In this document: positions 2,400 through 43,006 of the stretch, one piece after another
Position numbering within the stretch: the first letter of the stretch is position 1
Layout: each line of letters starts with the position of its first letter
Assembly (NCBI RefSeq): GCF_000373105.1
Contig: NZ_KB890423.1
Location: 62,001 to 126,000, forward strand
From: Neolewinella persica DSM 23188
Lineage (GTDB): Bacteria > Bacteroidota > Bacteroidia > Chitinophagales > Saprospiraceae
Direction of reading: 5' to 3'
DNA length: 64,000 bases
Translations under genes and position numbers: made by a program
The notes under the pieces: model-generated
Told to the model about the DNA's origin: nothing
What the model saw: the letters and a program-made list of their open reading frames with translations, nothing else
The model's database searches: none

Positions 2400-3032
2400 A
2401 TGAACCACGCCACTTTCTCTTGGGATATTTTTAATGCTACTCCCGTCGTCGCCATTCTACGTGGCCAGTCTATTCCTACCTGTGTCAGGATCGCCAAAAC
2501 CTTAAAATCTAACGGTTTTGGCACCCTGGAAGTCACGATGAATACGCCGGATGTTGCTGAAATAATTGCTGAATTACATGATCGCTTTCCCGACCTCAAT
2601 GTTGGGGCTGGCACGGTGTGTAACCTTGCGGAACTTGAAGTAGCCCTGGGAGCTGGTTCAAGTTTCATTGTCACACCGATCATTGACGAAGCGGTGATCA
2701 CCACCTGTGTAAAACTGGGCGTTCCTGTTTTTCCTGGCGCTTATACGCCCACCGAAATTTATAAAGCCTGGAGCCTGGGGGCTTCAGCCGTGAAGGTGTT
2801 TCCGGCAGGCCAGTTAGGGGTCAAATACATCAAGGATTTGAGTGGGCCGCTGCCGCAGGTCAAATTGGTGCCCACCGGCGGGGTATCGCTTTCCAACATC
2901 CGTTCCTTCTTTGAGGCCGGAGTTGCCGGGGTAGGGATGGGGAGTTCTTTGTTAGATAATAGGCTGATCGCAGAAGGGGATTTCGAAGGGCTGGGAAGGC
3001 ACTTTCAGGCTATTCGGGAACAGATCATTTAG
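2400..3032 (+). CDS. KDPG/KDPGal aldolase (Eda/DgoA/DauD family)
   Basis: A class I aldolase of 210 residues, the normal family length. Visible motifs are PVVAILRG at the N-terminus, GTLEVTMNTP, VGAGTVCN, the Schiff-base lysine in SAVKVFPAGQLG, and the phosphate-binding LVPTGGVS. It cleaves 2-keto-3-deoxy-6-phospho-gluconate or -galactonate to pyruvate and glyceraldehyde-3-phosphate. Placement directly after the deoxygalactonate kinase favours the galactonate epimer (DauD role). The family cannot be split by substrate from sequence alone. The start ATG follows a 70-nt gap with no clear ribosome-binding site, as is usual in Bacteroidota. No terminator is obvious before SusC. Confidence 0.9.
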   Translation: MNHATFSWDIFNATPVVAILRGQSIPTCVRIAKTLKSNGFGTLEVTMNTPDVAEIIAELHDRFPDLNVGAGTVCNLAELEVALGAGSSFIVTPIIDEAVITTCVKLGVPVFPGAYTPTEIYKAWSLGASAVKVFPAGQLGVKYIKDLSGPLPQVKLVPTGGVSLSNIRSFFEAGVAGVGMGSSLLDNRLIAEGDFEGLGRHFQAIREQII

Positions 3033-3090
3033 TATTGCGGTAGCCGCGCCTGAATACCCATATGTGTTACTAATGACCAACTACCCCTAA

Positions 3091-3159
3091 ATCGGGTAAA
3101 GGACGATGGTTTCAGGTTAAAATGCGGCTATATACCAGCAGGAAAGACTCGTTGCTTTG
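3091..3159 (+). promoter_or_regulatory. Candidate operator and promoter upstream of susC 1
   Basis: Two similar half-sites, GGGTAA at 3094 and GGTTAA at 3115, are spaced exactly 21 nt apart. The second runs into AAAATGCGGC, and TTGCTTTG at 3152-3159 resembles the Bacteroidota -7 element (TAnnTTTG). A block with the same core (AGGGTTAAAATACGG) lies before the first GH127 gene, and a 21-nt direct repeat also occurs at 24452/24473. Spaced direct repeats of this kind suit the AraC-type output domain of the hybrid two-component regulator at 24734-28753. This is inference from pattern only. Confidence 0.35.
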
Positions 3160-3279
3160 TAAAGTCAAGCAGCAACAGCGGAAAAGCTGATGCTCAGAGT
3201 GCCACATATGGTTCGGAAGTATTTTCTAACGGACCAGTATAAAGCCCTCTTGTACGCTCACTTTTTTAACAACCAGTCG

Positions 3280-6200
3280 ATGAAATACATGCAAACTCCC
3301 CTGTGGAAAACAGTGCTTCCACCCAATGCACGGAGGACGAAAAAACGCCCCCTGCTGCAAGTCGCATTCCTTCTTTTATTCTTATTCTTTTACCTGCCGT
3401 CAGTAGTTGCAGGCTCACCTATGCTACCGCTTACGGTTACTGGATCCGTTGTCGATGACGACGGTCCGCTGATTGGCGTAAATATTATCGTTAAGGGCTC
3501 CACCGAAGCGGGGAACCTGATTGGAACAGTTACGGACTTCGATGGCAATTTCAGTATTGATGTACCCGAAAACAACTCGATATTGATCTTTACCTATACA
3601 GGGTACGATACCCAGGAAGTACCCGTTGGCGGACGCTCCGTAATTGACCTGAAATTATCCTCCAACAGTGAAGTATTGGAGGAGGTGGTCGTGATTGGCT
3701 ACACCACCCGTAAAAAGGGAGAACTGACCGGCTCAGTTAGTTCGATCAGTTCCAAGGAGATTGAGACTATTTCCACCGGGAACATTACCAAGGGTATGGC
3801 CGGGCGGGTTTCCGGTCTGATCATTAATGACCGTGGCGGCTACCCAGGTGATGACGGTGCCGATGCGGTCAGCATCCTTATTCGTGGTCAGGCGACCTTG
3901 GGCAACAACTCCCCGCTCATCGTAGTGGACGGCGTACCGACCAACAGCTTCTCCTTTCTGGCACCGGGAGACATTGAAACCTTTACCGTACTGAAAGATG
4001 CTGCGGCCGCCATTTACGGTGCTCGGGCCGCAAACGGGGTTATTCTGATCACCACTAAGCGCGGTAAAGCCGGTAAACCCAAGCTAAATTTCAGCACGAC
4101 CAACACCTTCTCGGGGTTCACTCGCGTGATGGACATGATGAACTCATCGCAGTTCGCCGAATACCAGAACGATTACAACGAACGTGAAGGCAATCCGCTG
4201 AACTACTCCGAACAGGATATTGCCAACTACCGGTCCGGTAACGACCCGATCAACTACCCCAATACCAACTGGTATGACCTGACGATGAAGGATCTTTCCT
4301 TTGAGACCCGGAACAGCCTTTCCGTCTCTGGTGGAGATGAGGGCGTCAAGTACTTCGTAAGTGGTAACCATTTTGATCAGGACGGACTCTTCCGTTCCGA
4401 CGCACTTGGATTCAAGCAGTACCAGCTTCGGTCCAATATTGATGTTAAGATCAACGACTACATTAGTTTGGGCGTTGATCTGTCCGGTATTCAGGGCCAG
4501 CGCCGCCAACCGGGAGCCCCGTCCGGCATAATTCATAAAGCGTTGCAGGTAACCGAGCCTACCCGTGTAGGCCAGTACCCCAACGGCCTGTATGGTGTGG
4601 CTGGAGAAAACGGAACTAATCCTGCCGTGCTGGCCAGCAATGCCAGCGGGTTTCAGGACCGGAGAAACTCCGAACTCCGTTCTCGTTTTACCGCCGACAT
4701 CAACCTTGGCTTTATTACCGAAGGGCTTAGCCTCCGGGGCAATGCTACCTTCCTTCAGCGTTCCTACGATACTAAACTTTTCCGCGATACCTGGACGGTT
4801 TACGACTTCAATGAGAACTCTGGTGAATACGATCCCATCAACGGTTTTGACTTTAATGCAGGTAACTTCCTAAGCGTAGAAGATTCCTACTTCAAGTTCA
4901 ATGAGGAGTACTACAGCGCACAGCTGAACTACAGAAAGGAGATCGGCAAAAACACCATCAGCGGGTTTGTCGCGACCGAACGGATTACCAATCGTTCGGA
5001 GTCCTTTGAGGCCTACAAGCGGGACCTCATTTCTGCTGAACAGCCTTCGCTTTTCGCGGGTTCTGATGACGGGCAACGCAGCACCGGTGTCTCTACGGAA
5101 TCTGCCCGCCTGAACTACTTTGGCTCCATTTCATACAACTATGACCGCAGGTACCTGATTGATGTTACCTTACGACGCGACGGCTCCAGCAACTTTGCTG
5201 CGGGCAACCGTTTTGGCACCTTTCCCGGTATTTCTCTCGGCTGGGCCATCTCGGAAGAGGCTTTCATGGGTGGCATAAAGGGGGACTGGCTGTCTAACCT
5301 GAAGCTGCGTGCCTCCTGGGCGCAATTGGGCAACGACCTCATTCCTGGTTTCCAGTTTCTTACCCAGTACCTCTATGGTGGTGGTAGCCCCGGCAACCGG
5401 AATTACTACATCTTTGGAGAAAACCCAACGCAGTACAACTCTTTCTTCAACTCGAATACGCCGAATCCGGACATCACTTGGGAAAAGGCCGACAACCGGA
5501 ACCTCGGCTTAAACTTCGCCTTGTTTGAATATAAGTTGACGGGTAACGCCAATTACTTCATGCAGAAGCGGACAGATATCCTGATCCGTCGCAACGCCTC
5601 AGTTCCGGACTTTACGGCCCTGGAGCTTCCCCAGGAGAACCTGGGTGAAGTGGACAGCCGTGGTTTCGAACTGGAACTGGCTTACCGCAATAGTACCAGC
5701 AGAGGGCTTACCTACAACTTCGGCGGTAACCTGACGAAGACGAGTAACGAAGTCGTCTTCCTGGATGAACCAGCAGATGTACCGGAATGGCGCCAGCGGG
5801 AAGGCTTCCCGATCAATTCCTTTGTGCTGTACCCCAGCAACGGTCTGTTCCGGACCCAGGCCGAGGTAGACGCTGCCGAGGTAAAACTTCCCGGTACTCT
5901 GCCTGGCGATGTACGCTATATTGACACCGATGGTGATGGCGAAATCACCGGCAACGACCAGGTACGCCGCTACACTTCTCCAACTCCGACTTTGACCTAT
6001 GGCTTCTTCGGAGGAATCTCCTACAAGAACCTCGACCTCAACTTCCTCCTGCAGGGGCAGGGAGGGGCCGACATTGAAGTGCGCTACGATAACGAAGGCA
6101 ACCGCCCCGCTTTCCTGGCCGATCGCTGGACGCCTGAAACACCCAATGGGACCTACCCACGCGCCTTCGGCCTCGATGATACCTACAACGCCAAGCTAAG

Positions 6201-28753: not shown

Positions 28754-29361
28754 AGCTCAACGTCCAGAGTTTTTCAAACCACTAATCACGCGCTTAGGTC
28801 TCTGCAGTGGAATCCTCTCCTACCTCAATGTAGTCAGGATTCCTCATTTCTGTAATCGTTACGGCCAAAATGAACCTCCCTTCCCCCTTTAATCGGATAA
28901 ATCTGACCGGTTTGCCCTCGTTATCGTGGTGTATATACAGTCAAAATGTCATGAAAAGCCAGACGCTTTAGGCGCGGACGCTGGTGCAGATGAAGGGTTA
29001 ATAAAAGCAGGGTTCCTGGATGCTTGGGTTGGAGGAGAAGAATTTGAAGTTTAACTGCCCTAAATCGCCTGGCCTCTCCTCCAGCGATAGCCTCACTAGA
29101 CAGTGGCGATGGGTTCTTTGATCATAAAGGACCATTGCTGACAACCTCGTCTGCTACATCCTTACAGTACAGATGAACTTTGCCTGAGATCTAGGAAACA
29201 CAAGCCTTGAGCAAAGATTTGCCCGATCAACACCCGTAGGATGAACGGTTATCCCCCCTCGTTTGAGGTACCCGTTAGGCCATCTTTACGATGCCCGGAG
29301 GAATTATCCGGGGCTAATCTGACACACCACTTACTTTTTACTTTAAGTCGAACACTTGTAT
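28754..29361. other. Divergent intergenic region between regulator and SusC 2
   Basis: About 610 bases with no convincing gene. The stretch 28892-28938 starts ATCGGATAAA and later contains GTATATAC, resembling the susC 1 upstream block (ATCGGGTAAA ... CTATATAC). Both the regulator and SusC 2 promoters must lie here. No dispersed repeat was found. Confidence 0.4.
28892..28938 (+). promoter_or_regulatory. Candidate operator in the HTCS/SusC 2 divergent region
   Basis: ATCGGATAAA, GGTTT and TATATAC occur in the same order and nearly the same spacing as in the block at 3091-3136. The intervening bases differ. A weak, pattern-based call. Confidence 0.22.
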
Positions 29362-32300
29362 ATGAAAAATCACATACTATTAAAAGCTGCTCTGATGTTC
29401 TCCGGGTGGCTCTTCTGCGGGCTCTTAGTTGCCCAGCAAAGCGTTTCGGGCACCATAGTTGACGCCGATGGTACTCCACTGATCGGGGTGAACATCGTGC
29501 AACAAAACACTTCCAGTGGAACGGTTACTGATCTCGATGGCACCTATCAGCTAACGGTTCCTGGCGACGCTGTCCTCGTTATTAGTTATACCGGGTTTAC
29601 CACAATTACCGAAGCAGTAGCTAATCGAAGTATTATCAACATCACGATGCAGGAAGGTGCCACACTGGATGAGGTAGTCGTTGTTGGTTATGGCCGTGAG
29701 AAAAAGTCAACGCTTACCGGCTCCGTTTCGGCGATCAATAGCGAGCAATTAACGGCGGTCCCCGTAGCCAATGCTGCTAACCTGCTTAGCGGTCGGGTCC
29801 CGGGCGTAATGACCCGTCAAAACTCCGGACTGCCGGGGGGAGAAGATACCCAGATCCGAATTCGTGGCTTCGCCAGGGCTCCTCTGGTACTGGTGGATGG
29901 TGTGCAAATGGACTTCAGCCGCATCGACCCCAACGACATTGAAACCATCACCATACTAAAAGATGCCGCCGCTGCCGTTTACGGTGCCCGGGCGGGCAAC
30001 GGGGTTGTTTTGGTCACCACCAAACGGGGGACCACCGGCAAGCCTAAGATTGCTTACAACGGAAGTTACACCCTGCAGTCTGCTGTCTCTTTCCAGGAGC
30101 ACGTCAGTGCCGGCCAGTATGTACAGTTGGTCCGTGAAGGAGACCTGAACGACGGCAACGGCTACGACTTCACCTTTGATGACCAGCTGCAGCAAAATTA
30201 TGAAACCGGTGCTCCAGGTTTCGAGGGCGGAGACTGGGTCGGAGCCCTGATCGACAACAACGCGCCGATGCAACAGCACAATCTCAGCGTTTCTGGTGGC
30301 ACGGCCGACATTAAGTATTACACTTCTTTCGGATACACCGATCAGGAGAGTTACTTCCGGACCCGGGATTTCGACTACAACCGGATCAACGCCCGATCTA
30401 ATATCGATGCGCAGATCAACCAAAACCTCAGCTTCAACCTGGATCTTTCTTACCGCGAAGAAACGACCAATCGGTCCACCAGCAATCTAGGTGCCATCTG
30501 GACGGATCTGGCTACCGCCCAACCCATACTACCAACTAGTTTACCTGATCCTTCCATCGGAAACGCCTACTCAGGTTTTTCTCAGCGGAACCCGGTCCTG
30601 CTTACGGACCGGAGCAAAGTCGGCTTCTGGGATCAGGTTGACAATGTATTTCGTGGTAAACTCGGAGGCAATTATAAGATTCCCTTCATTAAGGGGCTGA
30701 CCCTCCGGGCGGAAGTCAACGTCGAGCAGCTGAGCCGAGCCACCAAAAGCTTCCGTAAGTCGGCCGAACTTTATCAGTACCTGCCTGAAACGGACAATTA
30801 CACGCTGGAAGGCGTGTTTAGCCCGGTAAGCAGTATTTCAGACGCTCAGTTTCGCCGGACCCAACTATACCCCCTCGTTTCCCTGGAGTATCAAAAGAAG
30901 GTTGGCAACCACAGCGTAAAGCTGCTCGGTATTGCAGAACAACAGACGCGGAAGTTCAGTAGCCTGAGTGCTTCCCGGCTGAACTTGCTGGCCAGCTCCA
31001 TTCCTGAGCTCTTCATTGGATCCACTGATCAGCAACTGAACAGTGGTAATTCCGGAGCCGATATTGGCCGTAAAAGTGTCGTTGGCCGCCTCAACTACGG
31101 ATTTAAAGACCGTTACCTTTTCGAAGCGACCATGCGCGCTGACGGTAACGTCCTTTTTGCACCCGAAACCCGTTGGGGCTATTTCCCCAGTGTATCCGCC
31201 GGGTGGGTTATTTCCGAAGAATCTTTCTTCAACAGTTCAAAGGTTGTTGACTTCCTGAAGTTACGTGCATCATACTCCCGGTTGGGGGACGACCAGGCCA
31301 ACGGCCTCAATGGCTATGATTACCTGACGGGTTACGATCTGGAGGGTAGCCCATACTTGTTTGGCGAAAGTGAAGGTCAGCCAAGAATTCGTACCCGTGG
31401 CCTGGTCAATCCGGCCCTGACCTGGGAGATTCTGACAATGACCAATATTGGCCTGGAAGCGACCCTATTTGATGGCAAGTTAGGCGTGGAAATTGATGTG
31501 TTCAATCGTAAGAGGGAAGGCATCATCGACATCAACGTGGAAGACGTACCCTCTACTTTCGGTGCCGTCCTTCCGGTGGTCAACATCAACTCTCAGGAGA
31601 GCAGAGGTTTTGAAGTATTGCTGAGTTATGAGCAAAGAATCGGTGCCTTCAAGATTGACATTTCTCCAAATATATCTCTTGCGCGTTCTACCTGGCTGGA
31701 AGTCAAAAGCCAGGAAGATTTCACCGACCCTGACCAGAAGCGCCTGTTTGAACTCGATGGCAAGCGTGTCAACCGTTTCGTCGGCTACCGCAGCGATGGT
31801 ATCTTCATGAGCCAGGCTGAGATCGACGATTATGGCGTTGTCCAGGATGGTAACGCTAACACTACCCTGCGCCCGGGAGACATTCGCTACCGGGATCTCG
31901 ACGGCGACGGTGAGATCACCTTTCGCGACCAGGATGAAATCGCCTTCAATACGGGCTTGCCCGAACTGGCCGGCGGTCTTAACCTTGGCATAACGTACAA
32001 GAATTTCCGCTTGAGTGGCCTGCTGCAGGGCGCGTCCAATTTCAGCATCAACATTTCGGGTAATGCACGCAGCGCCTTCAGCAACGCCTCCATTCCATTT
32101 GTTTACCATTACGACAACCGCTGGCAGCCAGACCCCAATAACCCCGGGGTCAACATCAACCCCAACGCCAGCCTGCCCGCCATCACCCAGGCACCAGGAG
32201 CCAACAACAACCGTGTCTCCGATTTCTGGGTAAAGAATGTGAACTACTTAAGGCTTAAGAATCTTAACCTGACTTACGCACTGCCCGCCAGTATCCTGTC

Positions 32301-32472
32301 TAAAATCGGGATCGGGACGATGGATGTCTACGTTGCAGGTGAGAACATTCTTACCACCAACAACCTTGGCATCTTCCAGAATGCTTTCGACCCCGAAGCA
32401 CAGTCAGGTAACCCCGCCCGAACCTTCCCAATCACCAGGACCATCGCCTTCGGCCTGCGGGCTTCATTGTAA
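29362..32472 (+). CDS. SusC/RagA-family TonB-dependent outer-membrane transporter 2
   Basis: About 1036 residues from the ATG at 29362; a TTG 6 nt earlier is rejected. Signal peptide MKNHILLKAALMFSGWLFCG, then a carboxypeptidase-regulatory-like domain (VSGTIVDADGTPLIGVN, GTVTDLDGTYQL), the linker LDEVVVVGYGREKKSTLTGS, the plug (IRIRGFARAPLVLVDGVQ, LKDAAAAVYGARAGNGVV) and a barrel ending TRTIAFGLRASL. It differs clearly in sequence from SusC 1, so the two import different fragments or fractions. SusD 2 follows 21 nt later. It is divergent from the HTCS regulator, a usual arrangement in these loci. Confidence 0.93.
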   Translation: MKNHILLKAALMFSGWLFCGLLVAQQSVSGTIVDADGTPLIGVNIVQQNTSSGTVTDLDGTYQLTVPGDAVLVISYTGFTTITEAVANRSIINITMQEGATLDEVVVVGYGREKKSTLTGSVSAINSEQLTAVPVANAANLLSGRVPGVMTRQNSGLPGGEDTQIRIRGFARAPLVLVDGVQMDFSRIDPNDIETITILKDAAAAVYGARAGNGVVLVTTKRGTTGKPKIAYNGSYTLQSAVSFQEHVSAGQYVQLVREGDLNDGNGYDFTFDDQLQQNYETGAPGFEGGDWVGALIDNNAPMQQHNLSVSGGTADIKYYTSFGYTDQESYFRTRDFDYNRINARSNIDAQINQNLSFNLDLSYREETTNRSTSNLGAIWTDLATAQPILPTSLPDPSIGNAYSGFSQRNPVLLTDRSKVGFWDQVDNVFRGKLGGNYKIPFIKGLTLRAEVNVEQLSRATKSFRKSAELYQYLPETDNYTLEGVFSPVSSISDAQFRRTQLYPLVSLEYQKKVGNHSVKLLGIAEQQTRKFSSLSASRLNLLASSIPELFIGSTDQQLNSGNSGADIGRKSVVGRLNYGFKDRYLFEATMRADGNVLFAPETRWGYFPSVSAGWVISEESFFNSSKVVDFLKLRASYSRLGDDQANGLNGYDYLTGYDLEGSPYLFGESEGQPRIRTRGLVNPALTWEILTMTNIGLEATLFDGKLGVEIDVFNRKREGIIDINVEDVPSTFGAVLPVVNINSQESRGFEVLLSYEQRIGAFKIDISPNISLARSTWLEVKSQEDFTDPDQKRLFELDGKRVNRFVGYRSDGIFMSQAEIDDYGVVQDGNANTTLRPGDIRYRDLDGDGEITFRDQDEIAFNTGLPELAGGLNLGITYKNFRLSGLLQGASNFSINISGNARSAFSNASIPFVYHYDNRWQPDPNNPGVNINPNASLPAITQAPGANNNRVSDFWVKNVNYLRLKNLNLTYALPASILSKIGIGTMDVYVAGENILTTNNLGIFQNAFDPEAQSGNPARTFPITRTIAFGLRASL

Positions 32473-32493
32473 ACTATCATATACAGATTGATT

Positions 32494-34275
32494 ATGAAAA
32501 ATTCATTCAATTACTTACTACTTGCTGTATTCCTGGCCTTTTCCTCGTGTCAGGATCCTTTTGAGTTGACGCCAACCGATATCATTTCCGGATCAGTCGT
32601 CTTTGAAGATGAAGGCCTCGCGGATGCTTTTCTGGCAGACCTCTACGAACGGGCATTGTTTCATTATAACACTGGTCAGTCGAACTTCGAAATGAATCTG
32701 GTCAATGCTTTTGGTGGAGAATCACGAAATTTCGCCCCCTGGCAATCTCCGTTTGGCCAGGTTATGGACACCGATTTTGATGAGAATGGTGCCGGAGTCA
32801 TCGCTCATTGGCCCTACAATACCATTCGCGAATGCAACGTCTACATTGAAGGGTTACCGTTGTCTGCAGGGTTGGACCAGGATTATATTGCCATCAGGGT
32901 GGGGGAAGCACGCTTTATCCGCGCCTGGGAATATTTCCAAATGGTTATCCGGTATGGGGGAGTGCCGATCGTGACCAGCGCCTTACCCGCAGATGCCAGC
33001 GACGAAGAACTCTTCGTTAACCGTAATTCTGAAAAAGAGGTGTATGATTTCATCGCCTCGGAAATGGATGCCATTGCCGCCGTCCTGCCCGGGCAAGCGG
33101 ATATCGACGGACGCGTTACCCGGTGGGCGGCCCTGGCGCTGAAAAGCCGGGCCATGCTTTACGCTGCCAGCGTCGCCAATTTCGGGACACAACAACTCAA
33201 TGGTATCCTTGGCTTCCCTTCCAATGAGGCAAACAACTACTACCAGCAGTCGTTAAGTGCCTCTATGGAAATCATGCAAAACGGACCGTTTTCCCTCTAT
33301 CGAAATAATGCTGACCCAGTGGAGAATTTCACTAACCTGTTCCTTGATGAAGCAAACAACCCGGAAGTCATCTTTGCCGAAAAGTATGACCTCGAAGCCG
33401 GTAAGAACCACAGCTGGGACATAACCGGAACACCCGCAGGCTTTGGCTTTGCCTGGAACTCCAACTATCCGGTTTACCTGGAAACTATGGAGTTGTTTGA
33501 CTTCACCGATGGTGCATCCGGCAAGGTAGATCGTTCGCTCTATGACGACGCAACCCCCATTGACCCAGCCCGGTTCTTTGGCGAACGTGACCCTCGTTTC
33601 CGAGCTTCGGTATTCTATCCGGGTACTTCCTTTAAAGGCGGCACCTTTTACTCTCACCGTAGTACAGACTACACGGACCCCGCTACCGGAATGGTTACCC
33701 AAACCACTGCACCCGGATTCATTATTCCGGGCTCCGATGGCTGGCCTGGTTCCGGCCATCCACGGCACCGTGGTGGTAACCCAACTGGTCTGTTAACCCG
33801 TAAAATGATCAACCCCGCCACGCCCGACGGCACCGCCTCCAGCACCGACGTCATCATCATGCGCTACGGAGAGATCCTGCTCAACTACGTGGAAGCCGCT
33901 TTCTATCTGGGCGACCCCAACGGTGATATGGCAACGGTCTTCAACGACATTCGCGACAGAGCCGGCATGCCGGAACTTACCACCGCCGAAATCACGGAGG
34001 ATCGTATTCGTCAGGAAAGAAGGGTCGAGTTGGCCTTCGAATCCCAGATATTCTGGGACTTGAGAAGGTGGCGGACTGCCGTTGAAGAACTGCACAACGT
34101 GCAGCGTCACCGGACGCACTATCGCTACAACTACGATACGGGCATGTACACTATTGCCATTGCAGACGGTGACCTGGGCAGGGTACGCCTGCACCCCGAA
34201 AAAAACTACTACTACGCCCTTGGCTTAAACCGGATTGCCGACAACCCTAACCTTGTGGAAAATCCAGGTTATTGA
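32494..34275 (+). CDS. SusD/RagB-family surface glycan-binding lipoprotein 2
   Basis: About 593 residues. The ATG at 32494 gives a lipoprotein signal MKNSFNYLLLAVFLAFSSCQ; the TTG 6 nt upstream is not needed. SusD features: GEARFIRAWEYFQMVIRYGG in the TPR-like core, VTRWAALALKSRAMLYAA, MRYGEILLNYVEAAFYLG, and ERRVELAFESQIFWDLRRW near the C-terminus. It follows SusC 2 by 21 nt and is its lid on the cell surface. A long repeat-rich gap follows, so transcription probably stops there. Confidence 0.92.
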   Translation: MKNSFNYLLLAVFLAFSSCQDPFELTPTDIISGSVVFEDEGLADAFLADLYERALFHYNTGQSNFEMNLVNAFGGESRNFAPWQSPFGQVMDTDFDENGAGVIAHWPYNTIRECNVYIEGLPLSAGLDQDYIAIRVGEARFIRAWEYFQMVIRYGGVPIVTSALPADASDEELFVNRNSEKEVYDFIASEMDAIAAVLPGQADIDGRVTRWAALALKSRAMLYAASVANFGTQQLNGILGFPSNEANNYYQQSLSASMEIMQNGPFSLYRNNADPVENFTNLFLDEANNPEVIFAEKYDLEAGKNHSWDITGTPAGFGFAWNSNYPVYLETMELFDFTDGASGKVDRSLYDDATPIDPARFFGERDPRFRASVFYPGTSFKGGTFYSHRSTDYTDPATGMVTQTTAPGFIIPGSDGWPGSGHPRHRGGNPTGLLTRKMINPATPDGTASSTDVIIMRYGEILLNYVEAAFYLGDPNGDMATVFNDIRDRAGMPELTTAEITEDRIRQERRVELAFESQIFWDLRRWRTAVEELHNVQRHRTHYRYNYDTGMYTIAIADGDLGRVRLHPEKNYYYALGLNRIADNPNLVENPGY

Positions 34276-34392
34276 TACATATGTTTTCAGCCACACGACC
34301 TCGAATAAAACCTTAGCATAATAGTATGTTGCTAAATATTCCGGTGGTACAGCTATAAATTTTTGCTGTTTTTCACTTGTCGCTTAGTGACC

Positions 34393-34448
34393 GCCCTTGA
34401 GTTGCCTGGGACAAGGAGGAACGACGCGGTCCCAGGTAACTCAAGGGC
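34393..34448. repeat. Hairpin-forming inverted repeat
   Basis: GCCCTTGAGTTGCCTGGGAC (34393-34412) pairs with GTCCCAGGTAACTCAAGGGC (34429-34448) at 19 of 20 bases around a 16-nt loop; it starts 117 nt after SusD 2 and could end its transcript. Confidence 0.6.
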
Positions 34449-34586
34449 CGTTAAGGTAGGACGACGCGCTGCGTCGTTAGGTTAATGCAAAGTCCGTTAC
34501 CCCGGACTTTGCCCAGGGTAGCTATTGTATATTCGATACGCGAAATTCGGACCCGTTAAACTTTTTAGAATTTATGTTACACTGTA

Positions 34587-34757
34587 CTAGTGCTCTGTCA
34601 GGCCGACCTTGTCACACTACCTGCGGCGCCTTTTGCCCGCTGGTGACGTTTGCTTGAATCCTCATTTAGCTACGGCTAACTCTGGTTAAAGCGCCTTGTC
34701 AGCAGGGCAATACCCACCAGCATTTAATGCGACGGAATCGACCTGACAGAGCACTAG
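34587..34757. mobile_element. MITE-like element with 16-base terminal inverted repeats
   Basis: CTAGTGCTCTGTCAGG at 34587-34602 and CCTGACAGAGCACTAG at 34742-34757 are perfect inverted repeats. The outermost CTAG on both sides may be a 4-base target duplication, giving a 163-base element with 12-base ends. The interior has no reading frame of use. Size, ends and lack of a transposase fit a miniature inverted-repeat element; the parent transposon is not in the window. Confidence 0.5.
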
Positions 34758-34779
34758 CTGTACCACCGGTTTTGATTAG

Positions 34780-34798
34780 GGCGGGGCCATAGGTTCAA
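34780..34798 (-). repeat. Dispersed GC-rich repeat, degenerate copy
   Basis: GGCGGGGCCATAGGTTCAA differs at two or three bases from the reverse consensus; it lies just outside the MITE-like element. Confidence 0.45.
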
Positions 34799-34883
34799 AA
34801 AGGATTTAAGGAGCAAGAGACGAAGGGTGACAGTAACCACTAAAGTATTCAGGCGCCAAGAGCTACACTAAGGAGAATTAGGG

Positions 34884-34902
34884 GGCGGGGTCGCAGGTGC
34901 AA
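34884..34902 (-). repeat. Dispersed GC-rich repeat copy
   Basis: GGCGGGGTCGCAGGTGCAA, one base from the reverse consensus, in the gap before sulfatase E. Confidence 0.6.
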
Positions 34903-35112
34903 AATGGAAGATCGAAGCAGGAACATACCCTTCACGAAGTGGTTTTGGGAAATTGCGTGGCGCTGAGCGCCTTCAAGCGCTACCGACGAACCTGCTAGTG
35001 AAGTGAAAACTATGTTTCATTTCAGAAACTTCCTGACTTATTCCGTACGAACGGAGCTTTGCCCGTGAGTATCGGCACACTGAAGGTCTCTTCCTTGCCT
35101 TCCGACCTTTCC

Positions 35113-35132
35113 TTGCATCCTGCGGCCGCGCC
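35113..35132 (+). repeat. Dispersed GC-rich repeat copy with one-base insertion
   Basis: TTGCATCCTGCGGCCGCGCC keeps the consensus order with an extra T and one change, 60 nt before the sulfatase E start. Confidence 0.5.
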
Positions 35133-35194
35133 TCCTTCTCTTGCCCTCCTCCCGCCAAACAAAAAAACCAGCCACCTTTCCATAAACTTTGATC

Positions 35195-36604
35195 ATGCGC
35201 TTCCCGCTTCTCTTATTATTCCTGGTCCTGATCCTCCCCGCCTGCAAAAGCCCGCAGACCAGTACTGACCGCCCGCCCAACCTCGTCCTTATATTAGTTG
35301 ATGACCTGGGATATGGCGATGTAGGCTTCAACGGTTGCCAGGACATCCCCACGCCTCACATTGATCGGCTGGCGGCAGCAGGCGTGATCTTCACCAACGG
35401 CTACGTTAGCTACCCCGTATGCGGCCCCAGCCGCGCCGGGTTAATCACCGGTCGTTACCAGGATCGTTTTGGCTTCTCCCGTAATCCACTCTTTGCCCCC
35501 AATGACCCCGATATGGGATTGCCGGTAGCGGAAGAGACCATTGCTGAGGTCCTGCACAAGGTGGGCTACAAATCAGCAGCTCTGGGCAAGTGGCACCTCG
35601 GTGCGCACGAAAGCCAGCGGCCTTTGGTACAGGGCTTCGATGATTTCTTTGGTTTCCTTACCGGCGGGCATCGGTATTTTCCTAAGGACTATACCCTGGC
35701 CGACGAATACGAGGTAAATAGCCAATACGCTGCCTACCGCACAAAATTATTGCGGAACGAAACCCGGATCGAGGAAACGGAGTACCTCACCGATGCGCTC
35801 TCCCGCGAGGCGGTGAATTATATTGAGAAGTACCAGGGCAACCCCTTCTTTATTTACCTGGCATATAATGCGCCGCATGCGCCAATGGAAGCCACCGATA
35901 AATACCTTGATCGATTCCCCCACATTGAAAACAAACGCCGACGAACCTACGCCGCCATGGTGAGTGCCGTCGATGATGGGGTAGGGCGCATCCTTGATCA
36001 GCTGGAAGCACTCCATCTGGAAGAAAACACCCTGGTCGTTTTTCTTTCCGACAACGGTGGGCCGGAACACGTTAATGGTTCGGATAATGGGGCCTTACGT
36101 GGCAGGAAAGGCGATCTTTTTGAGGGAGGCATTCGGGTTCCTTATGCGATGAAATGGCCAGGGGAAATCCCGGCAGGTCTTCGATACGATGAAATGGTTA
36201 GCTCGTTGGACATTTTGGGTACCATGGCTGGCCAACAGGCAGGTGGTAACCCGGCAAAGAACCCCTTAGATGGTGTTGACCTTTTGCCATTCCTCAAAGG
36301 AGCGGCTGATGGTCTGCCACACAATCAGCTTTTCTGGAAGAAGGTGGATCAACAGCGACATGCTATCCGGAGAGGGACAGATAAATTGATCAGTTTTCAG
36401 GATGGGCCGCAGTTGTATGATCTGGGCGAAGACATTGGGGAAGCAAATAACCTGGTGGAGCAACAGGCTGCTAAGGTGAAAGGCCTGGAAGAAGCCTGGG
36501 AGGCTTGGAACGCGAACAACCAGGACCCCGTATTCCTCGGTCTCCTGCAGGATTCTCTTTACAGCACCCTTCACCCAAACCGTTTCACCCGACCAAACGA
36601 TTAA
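35195..36604 (+). CDS. Family S1 sulfatase E, lipoprotein
   Basis: About 469 residues from the ATG at 35195; the TTG at 35189 is a poorer start. The N-terminus MRFPLLLLFLVLILPACKSP is a lipoprotein signal. Motifs: NLVLILVDDLGYGDVGFNG, formylglycine cysteine near residue 76 in YPVCGPSRAGLITGRYQ, LGKWHLGAHES and FLSDNGGPEHVNG, plus GALRGRKGDLFEGGIRVPY. It resembles sulfatase A in motif style (CGPSRAG, TGRYQ.RFG), so both may act on similar sulfate esters. It is followed after 3 nt by a secreted beta-helix protein, forming a two-gene unit downstream of SusCD 2. Confidence 0.92.
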   Translation: MRFPLLLLFLVLILPACKSPQTSTDRPPNLVLILVDDLGYGDVGFNGCQDIPTPHIDRLAAAGVIFTNGYVSYPVCGPSRAGLITGRYQDRFGFSRNPLFAPNDPDMGLPVAEETIAEVLHKVGYKSAALGKWHLGAHESQRPLVQGFDDFFGFLTGGHRYFPKDYTLADEYEVNSQYAAYRTKLLRNETRIEETEYLTDALSREAVNYIEKYQGNPFFIYLAYNAPHAPMEATDKYLDRFPHIENKRRRTYAAMVSAVDDGVGRILDQLEALHLEENTLVVFLSDNGGPEHVNGSDNGALRGRKGDLFEGGIRVPYAMKWPGEIPAGLRYDEMVSSLDILGTMAGQQAGGNPAKNPLDGVDLLPFLKGAADGLPHNQLFWKKVDQQRHAIRRGTDKLISFQDGPQLYDLGEDIGEANNLVEQQAAKVKGLEEAWEAWNANNQDPVFLGLLQDSLYSTLHPNRFTRPND

Positions 36605-36607
36605 TTT

Positions 36608-38479
36608 ATGCGTCTTCTACTACTTAACCGATCACTTCTCCTGGTCTTCATGGCCCTGTTCTTTTTGTCCGGCTCCCTTTCAGCCACCACCTTCTACGTC
36701 AGCACCTCCTCGGGGGATGATGGAAATGACGGCCTGAGCGCCACATCAGCCTGGCAAACCATCGGAAAAGTGAACGCCCGGTTAATGGAACCCGGTGACA
36801 GCGTGCTTTTTCACGCTGGAGAGACCTTTGTTGGTCAACTTCGACTCGTCAACGAAAGTGGGGATCCGGGCTTTCCGATTGTAATCAGTAGATATGGGAC
36901 AGGGGAGCGGCCGGTGATTGATGGTGACGGCCATTTAGCCACCATCCTCCTCGAAAACAGTGGTCAGGTCCACCTCTCTGAGTTTGAAATTAAAAACGAC
37001 GGAGGGCCTGCTCAACCTGGCACTTCCGTGAAACTCCGGTATGGCCTTTACCTGGTCAATACCTTCACGGACGGGACCACTTTCGATCACTACCGGTTCA
37101 CCAACCTGACCTTTCGGAATATTTACTCCACCCAGCAAATAAACGATGATGATCAAACGGGGGTTAATGCCCACGCCATCAAAACGAAAAACTCCGGATT
37201 CAATCCTGAACATCCCATTCACTTCCGGGATATGCTCGTGGAAGGCTGCTTTTTTACCCGCACCGGCCGCCATGCCGTGGTGATTGGTGCCACCGACCAG
37301 CTTACCCTGCGGAGTAACCTGTTTCAACACGTGGGCGGAGCTGGTATGGTCATGGCCGCTCATAGCCGGAACATCCTCGTCGAAGACAACATAACTGATC
37401 ATACCGGTTCTAACCTCGACCCGCGTATGGCAGCAAGGGGAAGCGGTTTGTGGGCATACCGCACGACCAACCTGACGGTGCAAAACAATCGATTCCTGCA
37501 CGCCCGGGGCTTTAAAGATTCCTTTGGCATGCACATCGATATTGGCAACCGCAATGTGGTGTATCAGTACAATTACAGCGAAGACAACGAAGGGGGATTT
37601 GTGGAAATCCTGGGCGGCAACAGGAACGTCGGATATCGTTACAACGTAAGTGTCGGAGACGGCTGGCGGATGCGGGGCCCGCAACTGGGTAGAATCTTTT
37701 GGGTCGGTGGCTGGTCCGGGACGGTAAACCAGCCCGCAGCCTCCGACAGTGTTTTTATCTACAATAACTCAGTGTACGTACGAGACACGATCGCCCCACG
37801 GATATGGATTGAGGCCGTAACGAAAAACACCCGGATCTATAACAACATCGTCTACGTAGCGAATGAATTCAGTGACGTGTTCATTAAGAATGACCCCAGA
37901 CTAAATGACTTCAGCCACAACATCTGGTTCGGCAATATTGCTAACCGGGACACGGATGGGGAAGTCTATCAGGGAGTTACAGATTTTCACGAAGACCCAC
38001 GATATGAAAAGACCCCACCAAGGGACTGGGAGGACGTTCGACTTTTAGCTGGTAGTCCGGCGATAGGTACCGGAAAATTGATCTATGACCCAGCCGTCAG
38101 TCATCCGTTCGATGGGTACAGCAATCATGGCGGTCGGGATTTCTTTGGGCAGTGGGTGTCTACTACGGAACCTTCTAATATTGGGGCTTATAACGGCTTG
38201 CCGGTCAGCACGGCCTCTCCGGAAAGACTTCCGGTGCAGGTGTATCCTAATCCGGTTAACCGGGGCAAGGCACTCACCATTGAAGTGCCGCGCGAAATGC
38301 AGCGGGACCGGGTTCAGCTGCAGTTGGTTGACACTACCGGTAGGGTAGTGCTGGAATTCGCTGCTCAGGGACGGGAGACCATTGAGTGTAAGACTTCTAT
38401 GCTTTCTGGGGGGAGTTATTTGCTGCGGCTTAGTGGCGGTAGGTTTCGGGTTACTCGGTGGGTTGTTTTAGTAGAATAG
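36608..38479 (+). CDS. Secreted right-handed beta-helix protein with type IX sorting domain
   Basis: The protein has 623 residues. Signal peptide (LLLVFMALFFLSGSLSA), then TTFYVSTSSGDDGNDGLSA, the usual opening of parallel beta-helix enzymes, then helix rungs with many short repeats (VEDNITDHTG, VQNNRFLHARG, YQYNYSEDNEGG, IYNNSVYV). After LLAGSPAIGTG, the last 85 residues (VQVYPNPVNRGKALTI ... GGSYLLRL) form a type A type IX secretion domain, so it is exported to the surface or medium. It starts 3 nt after sulfatase E. Beta-helix proteins in such loci are often lyases or hydrolases (iota-carrageenase GH82 is one fold example), but no known family motif is visible. Function unknown. Confidence 0.85.
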   Translation: MRLLLLNRSLLLVFMALFFLSGSLSATTFYVSTSSGDDGNDGLSATSAWQTIGKVNARLMEPGDSVLFHAGETFVGQLRLVNESGDPGFPIVISRYGTGERPVIDGDGHLATILLENSGQVHLSEFEIKNDGGPAQPGTSVKLRYGLYLVNTFTDGTTFDHYRFTNLTFRNIYSTQQINDDDQTGVNAHAIKTKNSGFNPEHPIHFRDMLVEGCFFTRTGRHAVVIGATDQLTLRSNLFQHVGGAGMVMAAHSRNILVEDNITDHTGSNLDPRMAARGSGLWAYRTTNLTVQNNRFLHARGFKDSFGMHIDIGNRNVVYQYNYSEDNEGGFVEILGGNRNVGYRYNVSVGDGWRMRGPQLGRIFWVGGWSGTVNQPAASDSVFIYNNSVYVRDTIAPRIWIEAVTKNTRIYNNIVYVANEFSDVFIKNDPRLNDFSHNIWFGNIANRDTDGEVYQGVTDFHEDPRYEKTPPRDWEDVRLLAGSPAIGTGKLIYDPAVSHPFDGYSNHGGRDFFGQWVSTTEPSNIGAYNGLPVSTASPERLPVQVYPNPVNRGKALTIEVPREMQRDRVQLQLVDTTGRVVLEFAAQGRETIECKTSMLSGGSYLLRLSGGRFRVTRWVVLVE

Positions 38480-38595: not shown

Positions 38596-41500
38596 TCACT
38601 CCATCTCATACCGAATATCCGTATCCGGCAGCACCTTCCGCCAGTAGGCCACTTCCTCGGGTGGGATGCTGGTGCCGCGCAGGTCGAGGATTTTCAGGGT
38701 GGGGGCCAGGTTGATGAAGGTTTTGGGGAGGGTGTGGATGTTGGGGGAGGTGTTGTAAGTGGTGAGATACGGTCCGGGAGGTGCGTAAATTGGGCTAGTT
38801 AAATATATTTCTTTGATTTCAGCAAACCCGAGCCAGTCGTTCAAGGTAATTTGCTTGTCTTTATCCCCATTCATTACGAGAAACAGTACGTTTATCTTGT
38901 TTGTCTTCACATTAGAGGGGGGAAGACTATCTAATAGAGCATTTCTTTCGACAAAAAGAGTGTCAATATTTACTGACCAGGGTGATGTTGACAAGGATGA
39001 AATCGAGCGATTATAATTAATGTTTAACCTTTGGAGGTTTATGGTTTCTTTCCAGGTGGGTACGTCGCTTAAGACTTCGTTGCCGCTAATTTCAAGTTTT
39101 TGAAGTTGGTCCAGCCCTTGCCAAGTGGGTAAGTCTCTTAAGGCGTTATTACCCCAGATTTCAAGTTTTTGAAGTTGGTTCAGCCCTTGCCAATTGGGTA
39201 ATTCCCATAAACTACTATTGTTGCTAATTTCAAGTGTCTGTAGTTGTTCCAGCCCTTGCCAAGCCGGTAAGGTGTCTAGTCTGCCGCTAATTACAAGTTT
39301 TTGCAGTCGGCCCAGGCCTTGCCAGGTGGGTAAATTGTATAAACTATAATTGTTGGTGATTTCAAGTTTTTGCAGTTGTTCCAGCCCTTCCCAAGTGGGT
39401 AAGTCGCTTAAGGAATTATTGTAATGAAGTATAAGTTGCTGTAGCTTTTCCAGCCCTTGCCAGGAGGGTAAAGTATCCAGGTTGTGGCTGGCACTAATTT
39501 CAAGTTTTTGAAGTTGGTCCAGCCCTTGCCAGGAGGGTAAGGCGCTTAGGACGTTGTTGCCGCTAATTTCAAGTTTTTGCAGTTGTTCCAGCCCTTCCCA
39601 AGTGGGTAAGTCGCTTAAGACGTCGTTGCTATTAATTTCAAGTTTTTGCAGTTGTTCCAGCCCTTCCCAAGAGGGCAAGGCGAATAAATTATAATTACTA
39701 CTAATTACAAGATTTGTTAAGTTGTCTAATTTTTTTATTGCCTTAGGAATACTAATAATTCCTAACGGGTAATCATTTCTTACTGGCCCAAGATAAATAC
39801 TATCAATATCCGTCAAATCACGACTTCCGACCTCCCGCTCCCAAATCCCCAAAGTACTCTCCAGCTGTGCAATCCGTATTTCAGTCATTGTAAACTGCAA
39901 AAAAGTATCCTGTTTGATTAAAAGCTCCCTAAAACCAGCTAACGATTCCTCAATTTCTCCTTTAAGAATTTGCTCATCCTTCTTTGCCGTAGCCTTAGCA
40001 ATTCCTAAATATTTTTCCGCAAGGGCTTCTTCCAAACTACCTTCTTCCGCAAAAAACCGCGCCGCCCCCCAATAAGTAACCGCATCCCGCCAAGCGCCCT
40101 CACCGAAGAAGTCATTCCCCCGGTCCAGCAAATACTGGAAGGCATCGTCTTCTGCCAGGGCTTCATTCAGGGCGGCGGCGCGGGCGGCGCGCTCCACTGC
40201 TTCGTTTCGGGCACTGGTGGCCAGGCGAGTTTGCTCATTGGCTATTTCTCGCTGCTGATCAGCCGTATCCTTAGCAGCCACGGCAATACTCGTCTGTAGT
40301 TTCGCCTCGGTAATATTGTCTTCTGCCACCAGCCGCAAACTATCTGCAATAATCGTCTTCCGCTGAGCATCCGCCTGCGCTTCTTCAGCCTCCTGCCGTT
40401 GTCCCAAAGCCCATACAAAAGCCCCCACAGCCAAAACTGCCAAAACCGCCATCACCCCCCCAAACAACCGCTCCCGCCGCCGCTTTTTTTGCTCCGCCAG
40501 CAGCACCGCTTCCTGCTCCTTCAGCTTAGCCTCAGCCGCCAATTTCTGCTCTTCCAACAAAGCAGCCGCAAGCCTCTCTTCACGGCCCTTCCGCGAAGCA
40601 AGGGCAGGAACCAATAGCGTATCATGGCTCAGCTCATAGCTCAAGCCGCCAGTGCTGTTCGGCTCCCGACGGAGGAGGTAGCTTTCAACTAATCTGTCGA
40701 GAAAGGGCTGATCTACTCCTTCCAAGCGGTACTCCTGAAGGAGTGCTCGCCCATCCACACTCATGCGGAGGCCAGTTCCGTCTTCCGCTACCTGAACGAG
40801 TCTATCTTCAATCATCCGACGGGCCACGGGCTGAAGGCCGGGGGCTACCGCGCCGATTTGGCGGGCATAATAGTCTTCCATGACCTGGTTCGTCGCAGGC
40901 AGGTCGGAGACTTCCACGTCGGGTAAGCCGTTGCCGTCCCGGTCCGGGATCTCGCCAGCGATTACGCGGGCCTCGATGGCGTTGCAGAATACCTGTAACA
41001 AGAAGGCTTCTACGCCACCACCGGCTCCGGGCTGGGAGTTTTGCAGGGTTTTCAGGAGGTGAGCCAGGGTATCGGGACGGTACTCGAAGGGTGGGGAGGC
41101 AAAATCATGGCCTCCGGTAGCTACAGCGCCGAGCAGTGCAGGCTGCACGATGGCTGCCTGTGCCTGGGTAGGGGAGAGGGGGCCGAGTTGGAGGCGTTTA
41201 TGGAGGATGGCGGGGAGGCGGTCCTGTAACCGGTCGAGCTCGCTGAGCCGGTCGGAGCGGATGGAAAAGAGGGCACGAACGTCGATTCGGCGACTGAGGT
41301 AGCTCAGGGTCTCTTCCTCCAGCTTGTCGTCGTTCTCTTCAAGGTAGCGGGGGTAATCTGTGTACAGCAGTTCCGCAAGTTGTTCTTTGAAGGCGGCCTG
41401 TTGATCGGTGGGGTAGGTGAAGAATTCCTCGAACTGATCGAAGATGAGGACCAGGTGGGCGTTGTCGGGGAGGTTTTGGCGCTTCCAGTCGCCCCAGAGT

Positions 41501-41874
41501 GTTTTGGGTAGGGTAGCGGGCAAGTTGGTGCTGGTGGGTGCGATGCCCCATGCCTTCAAGGCGGCAGATTGCTGGAAACGGTACTTGTCGAAGAGGTCTG
41601 CTCCGGCCTGCCAGGCGTTGAAATGGATCACCAAAGGCAGGTACAAGCGGCGACCCCGATCATTTTCAGCGGTCATCCATGGTAAAAGGCCAGCCTGAAT
41701 GAGGGAAGACTTGCCGTAGCCGGACTTTCCGTAGAGCACGGTCAGTCGCTCTCCGCTTACAGTACTGAATAGGCGTTGGGTATCCTCCTCGCGGCCGAAG
41801 AAGATGCCTTGCTGCTCCGTCCGGAAGGGCTGGACACCGGGGTAACGATTGCGGTTAGCTGCCTTAGCCATCAA
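38596..41874 (-). CDS. STAND NTPase with membrane segment and leucine-rich repeats
   Basis: A protein of 1092 residues, made of four parts. First, an nSTAND1-type NTPase (about 10-430): entry YPGVQPFRTEQQGIFFGRE, Walker A YGKSGYGKSSL (residues 48-58), Walker B LVLIFDQFEEFF (141-152) and the typical YELSHDTLLVP near 413-423. Second, a transmembrane helix at about 471-490. Third, an Ala/Glu-rich coiled coil (about 490-620). Fourth, ten leucine-rich repeats of 23 residues (LPxWxGLxxLQKLEIxxNxxL, about 732-960). Known STAND proteins are switch-like sensors of invasion that release an effector. The likely effector is the SIR2-like gene whose end overlaps this start by 11 nt. The LRRs would be the sensing part. 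An anti-phage role is inferred, not proven. Confidence 0.85.
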   Translation of the reverse strand: MMAKAANRNRYPGVQPFRTEQQGIFFGREEDTQRLFSTVSGERLTVLYGKSGYGKSSLIQAGLLPWMTAENDRGRRLYLPLVIHFNAWQAGADLFDKYRFQQSAALKAWGIAPTSTNLPATLPKTLWGDWKRQNLPDNAHLVLIFDQFEEFFTYPTDQQAAFKEQLAELLYTDYPRYLEENDDKLEEETLSYLSRRIDVRALFSIRSDRLSELDRLQDRLPAILHKRLQLGPLSPTQAQAAIVQPALLGAVATGGHDFASPPFEYRPDTLAHLLKTLQNSQPGAGGGVEAFLLQVFCNAIEARVIAGEIPDRDGNGLPDVEVSDLPATNQVMEDYYARQIGAVAPGLQPVARRMIEDRLVQVAEDGTGLRMSVDGRALLQEYRLEGVDQPFLDRLVESYLLRREPNSTGGLSYELSHDTLLVPALASRKGREERLAAALLEEQKLAAEAKLKEQEAVLLAEQKKRRRERLFGGVMAVLAVLAVGAFVWALGQRQEAEEAQADAQRKTIIADSLRLVAEDNITEAKLQTSIAVAAKDTADQQREIANEQTRLATSARNEAVERAARAAALNEALAEDDAFQYLLDRGNDFFGEGAWRDAVTYWGAARFFAEEGSLEEALAEKYLGIAKATAKKDEQILKGEIEESLAGFRELLIKQDTFLQFTMTEIRIAQLESTLGIWEREVGSRDLTDIDSIYLGPVRNDYPLGIISIPKAIKKLDNLTNLVISSNYNLFALPSWEGLEQLQKLEINSNDVLSDLPTWEGLEQLQKLEISGNNVLSALPSWQGLDQLQKLEISASHNLDTLPSWQGLEKLQQLILHYNNSLSDLPTWEGLEQLQKLEITNNYSLYNLPTWQGLGRLQKLVISGRLDTLPAWQGLEQLQTLEISNNSSLWELPNWQGLNQLQKLEIWGNNALRDLPTWQGLDQLQKLEISGNEVLSDVPTWKETINLQRLNINYNRSISSLSTSPWSVNIDTLFVERNALLDSLPPSNVKTNKINVLFLVMNGDKDKQITLNDWLGFAEIKEIYLTSPIYAPPGPYLTTYNTSPNIHTLPKTFINLAPTLKILDLRGTSIPPEEVAYWRKVLPDTDIRYEME
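38995..39679 (-). repeat. Tandem 69-bp intragenic repeats encoding the leucine-rich repeats
   Basis: Ten consecutive units, nine near 69 bp and one of 63 bp. Several are almost identical at the DNA level; the plus strand repeats TTCAAGTTTTTGCAGTTG and CCAGCCCTTGCC. This is consistent with recent expansion by slippage or recombination. Confidence 0.85.
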
Positions 41875-43006
41875 CGGGGATTTTGGTGACCAGAGATAGG
41901 AGGGCGTAACGAATGCGGTTCAGCACCAACCGGAGATCTTCGGCGGAGGCTGTACCATTTTGTTGTGTTTTTAAATAGTCGCGATACTGCCCCTGCAAAA
42001 GCGGTAGGGTAGTCGTTGTTTCTTTCGAAAGAAGCACGCCTTTAAGGGCCGTGAAAGCCTGTTCAAAATCACCCGCAATCAACAACTGACGAACCTTGAT
42101 GGCGGCTGGAGCGTCCGGCTCGGTTAGCTCGCGCAGCAGGCCGGGGCTCGCCGCGCAAGCGGCGTGGATGTCGGAGAAATCTTCGCGGGATAGCGACTGG
42201 TGGGTAATGTTGAATTGCTTGAGAATGAACTGGCGGTTGTTATCGCTCAGGTCGCAAAGGATGGGGTAATTCTGGTTGTAATTATTGAACGGACTGTCGA
42301 GCTGGTTGATGTAGTGCAGGAAGAGTTGGAGGTACCAGCGTTCCAGTTCCACGCCGAGGAGGACGAAGTGGTCTGCTTCCCTGAGTTTGTCGGTCAGTTC
42401 GCGGGGAACCCCGGTGTCAGAAAGCAGGTATTTGAGCCGGTCGAAAAGGTCGTGGTAATCGAGGACGGTAGAATCCATCTTATCCAGTGCGCTACCGGCA
42501 AGGTTGTAAAGGAGGGGGCGCTCCTTGCCATTGGGGTAGGCGAGTTCTTTTAGCTCTGGCTTATCGTGGGTAGTGAAGTAGTCAAATTGCGGCTCGCGCC
42601 AGTAAGTGACGAAGGCGTCCCACACTCTTTTGTCCGGGTTCAGGTTAAGGATGACGGGAAAGGGGATGGCGACGATCTGTCGGAGTAGCTCAGCGTCAGG
42701 TTGCCATTCGTCGGTTCGGGCTACTTCCCGAATGCACTTGCGGGCACGGCGTTTGGCCTTAGCGTCCCGAAATTGGAAGAGGTTATCGCGCTCGTAGAAA
42801 TGTCCGATACCTTCTCCAACCTCAGCCTGCACCCGCGTCCGCGCCAACTCACTGAAGGACGTTTGCTCTGCGCCCCGGTAGTAGGGAATAGCGTCTGGCC
42901 CCAACACGAGGATGGCTTCTCCGTCGCGGATACTATCTACGAGGTCTTCCCAATCCGGTGGGGTAGGCGTTTCTGACATTTTTTGGTACTCTGTATGTAT
43001 GGGCAC
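41864..43006 (-). CDS. SIR2-like protein with C-terminal effector-associated-type domain
   Basis: The protein has 380 residues (371 if the second Met at 42979 is used). The N-terminal SIR2-like part shows AILVLGPDAIPY, VILNLNPDKRVWDA, PLLYNLAGSALD followed by VLDYHDLFDRL, and DHFVLLGVELERWYLQLFL; this is the degenerate SIR2 pattern of conflict-system proteins, not that of deacetylase sirtuins. The usual GAG and catalytic-His positions are altered (YNLAGS in place of YHLHGS), so NADase activity is uncertain. The last 75 residues (GDFEQAFTAL, LLQGQYRDYL, GTASAEDLRLVLNRIRYALL) look like an effector-associated domain of the EAD11 kind that docks effectors to STAND partners. It is the first gene of a two-gene operon, overlapping the STAND NTPase by 11 nt. 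Confidence 0.75.
   Translation of the reverse strand: MPIHTEYQKMSETPTPPDWEDLVDSIRDGEAILVLGPDAIPYYRGAEQTSFSELARTRVQAEVGEGIGHFYERDNLFQFRDAKAKRRARKCIREVARTDEWQPDAELLRQIVAIPFPVILNLNPDKRVWDAFVTYWREPQFDYFTTHDKPELKELAYPNGKERPLLYNLAGSALDKMDSTVLDYHDLFDRLKYLLSDTGVPRELTDKLREADHFVLLGVELERWYLQLFLHYINQLDSPFNNYNQNYPILCDLSDNNRQFILKQFNITHQSLSREDFSDIHAACAASPGLLRELTEPDAPAAIKVRQLLIAGDFEQAFTALKGVLLSKETTTTLPLLQGQYRDYLKTQQNGTASAEDLRLVLNRIRYALLSLVTKIPVDG

Follow-up and report, generated by a model that had tools for sequence, protein, structure and literature searches.

STAND proteins form multimers on sensing, and effector-associated domains (EADs) have been proposed to recruit effectors through homotypic contact, as set out in PMC8195603 and PMC7159879. 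Among the described systems closest to the gene pair analysed here, which lies on the minus strand of a 64,000-nucleotide stretch of Neolewinella persica DSM 23188 DNA (the window), the nSTAND1-FGS/EAD conflict systems resemble the pair and its relatives in their nSTAND1 NTPase, C-terminal FGE (FGS) domain and EAD-linked partners. In those systems, EADs or effectors are fused N-terminally to the NTPase (PMC8195603), whereas the constant partner in our family is a probably inactive SIR2-like protein with a C-terminal EAD11, encoded by a separate upstream gene, and the NTPase is mostly followed by a transmembrane (TM) helix (91/102). EAD recruitment in trans is also described in PMC8195603 and PMC10907252, but the window STAND protein itself had no EAD match at E ≤ 10 in a Pfam scan; the arrangement that defines the EAD principle, with one EAD shared by the NTPase core and the partner it recruits, is not seen in the window pair. 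The DGR-diversified STAND-CLec sensors (PMC10907252) likewise join a STAND NTPase to an FGE/lectin sensor, with an EAD that recruits a protease, and periplasmic placement is predicted for some of them as it is here. In the text of that paper, the domain is EAD8 and SIR2 goes unnamed, in contrast to the EAD11 and SIR2-like protein of the window pair, in whose family fused and secreted-looking sensors alternate and WD40 and LRR classes occur as well. Predicted extracytoplasmic STAND sensors (PMC10907252) and the combination of nSTAND1, FGE and EADs (PMC8195603) have already been described, and a preliminary description of the locus was fair in stating that in known STAND proteins sensor and effector are combined within a single chain or linked by adaptor domains.

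Two further systems invite comparison. EACC1 systems (PMC7159879) share with the window pair a two-gene layout, membrane association, a constant core with variable C-terminal modules and EAD links, but their core consists of EACC1 and a caspase without a SIR2-nSTAND1 pair, and the systems are mainly actinobacterial. Avs5, a SIR2-STAND protein (PDB 9jap, 9nc9) compared by structure titles only, is a single chain according to the title of 9jap, whereas here we find two genes, a lost catalytic His, and a TM helix together with a sensor that is probably extracytoplasmic. A search of open-licence papers in PMC returned no account of a SIR2-EAD11/nSTAND1-TM pair and none of an alternation between fused and secreted sensors; the nine open-licence papers containing "EAD11" were unrelated by title. 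Among bacterial NLR-like systems, those characterised best detect phage proteins inside the cytoplasm, and to the best of our knowledge neither a sirtuin fold acting as a pure immune scaffold nor an NLR surveying the periplasm or cell surface is known as a tested mechanism.

The upstream gene of the pair (41864-42979, minus strand) encodes a SIR2-like pseudo-sirtuin with C-terminal EAD11 of 371 residues from its ATG, or 380 from a GTG at 43006, and overlaps the STAND gene on the same strand (38596-41874; 1092 residues from a TTG, with an ATG at 41871), whose product is built of an nSTAND1 NTPase, a TM helix, a coiled coil, a helical segment and leucine-rich repeats (LRRs). A SIR2-like family profile, made from 34 of 91 homologues, matched at E ≤ 1e-12 in at least 80 of 398 genomes and at least 34 of 112 genera within the window's family, lower bounds with the best four candidates scored per genome, and in 3 of 395 genomes across the phylum; those homologues and named contigs that have a title are mostly Saprospiraceae. 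By script, 111 of 118 SIR2-like ORFs were accompanied by a same-strand nSTAND1 gene, three had no downstream room and four appeared unpaired, one of which (L110) proved paired on inspection, while 28 further divergent or fragmentary loci comprised 20 paired, five unpaired and three without room. This amounts to 132 paired among 140 SIR2-like ORFs with downstream room, nearly all from the window's own family and excluding the first-look loci L019-L034; for the first 118 ORFs, the criterion allowed gaps of up to 3000 nt and counted L144 and L156 as paired though a contig end cuts their nSTAND1 ORF. The eight unpaired ORFs are two fragments of L122, L185, L216, L230, L231 (nSTAND1 only upstream), L237 and L241, and room was lacking at L121, a third L122 fragment, L146, L227, L242 and L243. 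Reciprocally, all 15 nSTAND1 matches (E ≤ 1e-15) from 100 genomes including the window's own, 11 of them with a match, adjoin a SIR2-like match. We reject chance pairing on these two counts, and the notion of a genuine two-gene system put forward in the preliminary description is borne out.

A 4-nt overlap is the commonest arrangement of the two genes (49/102 complete pairs), and a gap of more than 50 nt separates them in 8/102. Pairing is also seen at L240, a locus that belongs to a different family of the same class. At L089, a gene of 371 codons (2661-3776), which we take to be DUF1016-like, stands between the SIR2-like and nSTAND1 genes as an operon insertion. Elsewhere in the genome of N. 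persica, at L066 (G000:C34), another nSTAND1 gene overlaps its upstream gene by 4 nt; the end of that upstream gene looks CHAT-like by eye, so that a different partner seems to occupy the two-gene layout of the window pair.

The SIR2-like domain covers approximately residues 10-281 (42137-42952) and is followed by the helical EAD11 domain (41876-42097). Its assignment, as proposed earlier, stands on the annotation of homologues and on fold comparison, which places the protein near ThsA, DSR2, KomBC and Avs5, with several of the PDB titles naming NAD or its derivatives. Profile searches, suggested at the outset for both proteins, gave a divided answer: they readily recovered EAD11 (PF19964, 46.7 bits against a gathering cut-off of 26) and nSTAND1 (PF20703, 113.4 bits against 27.1), but no Pfam SIR2 model matched the window protein at E ≤ 10, with SIR2_2 seen in 23 of 91 homologues, and a family-profile search of solved structures gave weak unrelated matches only, e.g., to armadillo repeats.

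In sirtuins, the His of the HG motif and the Asn of the TTN motif are catalytic residues, and the mutants DSR2 H171A and KomBC H146N are named in PDB titles. The His is found in none of the 110 aligned complete family members, where one of L, F, C, V, R, M, A, S, T and G stands before the HG glycine; the His is replaced by A161 in the window protein, no His occurs at positions 157-161 (window-protein numbering) in any of the 110, and a single member has a His at 163. The TTN-motif Asn is present in 27 members including the window protein (N114) and missing from 83, and the glycine motif is GP in 85/110, the GAG-type motif of the window protein having become GPD. By contrast, nine control SIR2_2 proteins from outside the family but of the same order (L186, L187, L190, L191, L195, L196, L198, L199 and L200, the other six of 15 SIR2_2 matches being family members) all keep both His and Asn when read by eye. 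The preliminary description had envisaged that the pair drains NAD on infection, i.e., an abortive infection in which the activated STAND protein switches on a SIR2 NADase, and both the structural neighbours and the retained N114 would suit this idea. It is nevertheless very unlikely in our judgement and we reject it, because the catalytic His is lost family-wide yet kept in all nine control SIR2_2 proteins; going by its sequence, the SIR2-like protein is probably dead as an NADase. A sirtuin fold lacking the catalytic His in 110 relatives also counsels caution about calling every SIR2-fold defence protein an NADase.

Despite the loss of His, the family alignment is most strongly conserved in, among others, the columns around the former active-site motifs, and the pocket-region residues G27, P115, N159, G162, S170, D177, G209 and W215 are invariant or nearly so. 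This conservation could mean that the SIR2-like domain binds a ligand or is an enzyme put to a new use, with a nucleotide held in the pocket region and signalling either licensed or carried out by the domain, but the conserved Gly, Pro and Trp residues may merely hold the fold, and we regard such a role as rather unlikely, if worth keeping in mind. Three loci of a single clade (L083, L177 and L180) have SIR2-like ORFs of 568 residues with an N-terminal extension that appears nucleotide-cyclase-like by eye, and their NTPase is split over two genes.

The nSTAND1 module of the partner protein (40585-41844) has the intact Walker A (41704-41730) and Walker B (41425-41439) motifs that were originally noted, and G54, K55 and S56 as well as D146-E150 are invariant in 30/30 aligned NTPases. 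A single TM helix is predicted at 40411-40467, in keeping with the membrane link proposed from the start, and a hydropathy rule finds such a helix after the NTPase in 91 of 102 complete STAND partners and none in the other 11. Lys and Arg are more numerous before the helix than after it in 89/91 (means 6.0 versus 2.9), and in the window protein KKRRRER stands just before it on the predicted cytoplasmic side; a charge bias next to a basic coiled coil is no proof of topology. The coiled coil with a helical linker (39823-40410, from predicted structure) and ten LRRs (38980-39687) are predicted to be extracytoplasmic, the latter as the sensor; the coiled coil and the LRRs were part of the earlier description. 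The segment after the helix matches a profile of the mostly secreted-looking third-gene proteins described below only weakly (E 0.01).

How the sensor is encoded varies across the family, with 51 STAND partners ending within 200 residues of the TM helix. Of the 55 short-tailed STANDs, 40 are followed at a distance of up to 60 nt by a codirectional gene longer than 150 codons, compared with 1 of 32 long-tailed ones (Fisher p 4e-11), and dropping nine near-duplicates leaves 36/51 against 1/29 (p 1e-9). These figures use a cut of 240 residues picked after seven tails of 202-223 residues were seen to be misplaced at 200; a cut of 200 combined with a maximum distance of 20 nt gives 33/51 and 4/40. 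Fifteen of the 55 short-tailed STANDs have no third gene within 60 nt, and the sole long-tailed exception, L152, is followed by a gene that looks undecaprenyl-pyrophosphate-synthase-like by eye. From 46 candidate third proteins we kept 38, setting aside four that are the latter half of a split STAND (L083, L177, L179 and L180), the unrelated protein of L152, a near-duplicate (L173), a short protein encoded close to the end of a contig (L168) and a protein with no clear start (L075). A simple rule detects a signal-peptide-like start in 31 of the 38, the other seven being similar by eye; the rule fires on 0/108 SIR2-like and 0/116 STAND ORFs, and on 121 of the 429 other genes of the loci, the third genes among them.

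The third proteins fall into WD40 (19), LRR (9), FGE (2), WG (2) and unrecognised (6) classes, and the 40 fused tails of at least 200 residues into FGE (15), WD40 (9), LRR (6) and unrecognised (10, seven of which are the tails of 202-223 residues). Classes were called by phmmer with seeds from Pfam-scanned proteins, and the WD40 (19 and 9) and fused FGE (15) numbers equal the Pfam counts. On a quick tree of 91 NTPase domains, built without a shuffle control, rows with a recognised sensor require at least 17 changes between fused and split states and at least 22 changes of sensor class; sisters include L097 with LRRs and L098 with FGE, or L094 with fused FGE and L096 with split WD40. Because the third proteins are mostly secreted-looking and belong to the same classes as the fused tails, the sensor is probably located outside the inner membrane and exchanged between systems. 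The strongest argument for this topology is that a module interchangeable with a secreted protein would be expected to work there. Alternatively, the helix may be an anchor only and the C-terminal module may stay in the cytoplasm; the AF2 model does have low confidence in the TM region and the topology is a prediction, but the charge distribution around the helix and the mostly secreted look of the counterpart sensors make this improbable to us.

The reading that we tentatively favour, without rating it as an even chance, is a conserved transmembrane NLR-type receptor operon that signals from outside to inside, with the pseudo-sirtuin passing the signal to an EAD11 network. Its sequence basis consists of the near-obligate pair, the loss of the NADase His, the intact NTPase motifs, the predicted TM helix with its charge bias and the alternation of fused and separate sensors. 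The variable C-terminal module, here the LRRs, would lie outside the inner membrane and recognise a ligand that is foreign or linked to damage. From there, the signal would cross the single TM helix and reach the nSTAND1 NTPase in the cytoplasm, which may oligomerise using ATP. The oligomer would in turn cluster the co-encoded SIR2-fold protein, a dead sirtuin serving as scaffold or transducer, whose EAD11 could gather the cell's other EAD11 proteins, a CHAT-domain and an iSTAND fusion among them, for a response that might be defence or cell death. Taken together, STAND multimers, homotypic EAD recruitment and 18 EAD11 places in the genome make outside-in signalling the simplest model. Weighing against it are the missing EAD match on the STAND protein, the lack of a recognised killing domain in the window operon and of defence neighbours, the unpaired SIR2-like ORFs, the STAND partners with no TM helix by the hydropathy rule, the short-tailed ones with no third gene within 60 nt, and the nine EAD11 ORFs without further Pfam match. 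A bolder and more doubtful version is a transmembrane "bacterial inflammasome" in which an exchangeable extracytoplasmic sensor triggers a STAND wheel that nucleates a dead-sirtuin filament displaying EAD11 to killers encoded elsewhere in the genome.

If true, the favoured receptor model would make the pair an outside-in alarm with swappable sensors instead of an NAD-destroying enzyme, and a bacterial system akin to the immune receptors of animals and plants. If the sensor is indeed extracytoplasmic, a conserved family in which it is swapped or split off from a constant cytoplasmic core would open the questions of what bacteria watch for at the envelope and how a signal crosses the membrane to a STAND NTPase.

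The neighbours of the pair in the window are metabolic. A SusC/SusD pair, a sulfatase and a right-handed beta-helix protein that bears a Por-secretion tail adjoin it at 29356-38479, probably a locus for the utilisation of sulfated polysaccharides, and regulator-like genes are nearby as well. In a test for a defence island, none of 37 neighbouring ORFs in the window matches PADLOC at E ≤ 1e-5. Such neighbours would be compatible with a sensory system unrelated to defence, in which extracytoplasmic LRR, WD40 and FGE modules recognise neighbours, kin or polymers and control regulation or development. Against this speak the patchy presence in family and phylum and the likeness of sensor swapping and EAD11/STAND make-up to described conflict systems, and we consider it unlikely. 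The patchy occurrence and the swapping of sensors would suit a conflict system but also self/non-self recognition, and a role in defence is an inference. The 100 neighbour ORFs of relatives that were scanned (from 118 selected out of 157) gave matches to 47 PADLOC families, none of them in more than three members, without a background control. On the pair itself, PADLOC gave only NsnB on the P-loop (E 0.0036) and nothing for the SIR2-like protein, and NCBIfam gave nothing useful for either protein, the XopL/XopAC matches being LRR cross-matches far under cut-off.

The EAD11 of the SIR2-like protein confirms the C-terminal effector-associated domain that had been suspected, and the operon contains no recognised killing domain in a Pfam scan. 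The 18 EAD11 places of the genome represent several paralogous copies of one EAD. By Pfam, the 17 other EAD11 ORFs include one each with CHAT, iSTAND, TPR, LRR and SIR2_2 domains, three with weak matches to further small domains and nine without further match. A second, divergent copy of the pair lies in the same genome (L082; G000:C55, 813-4999), with a fused LRR tail and a SIR2 domain that reaches the Pfam SIR2_2 cut-off (E 1.6e-15). At another site (L016; G000:C18), an EAD11-iSTAND ORF adjoins a P-loop ATPase that resembles MoxR on visual inspection, and the two may form part of a ternary conflict system that has EAD11 in common with the window pair.
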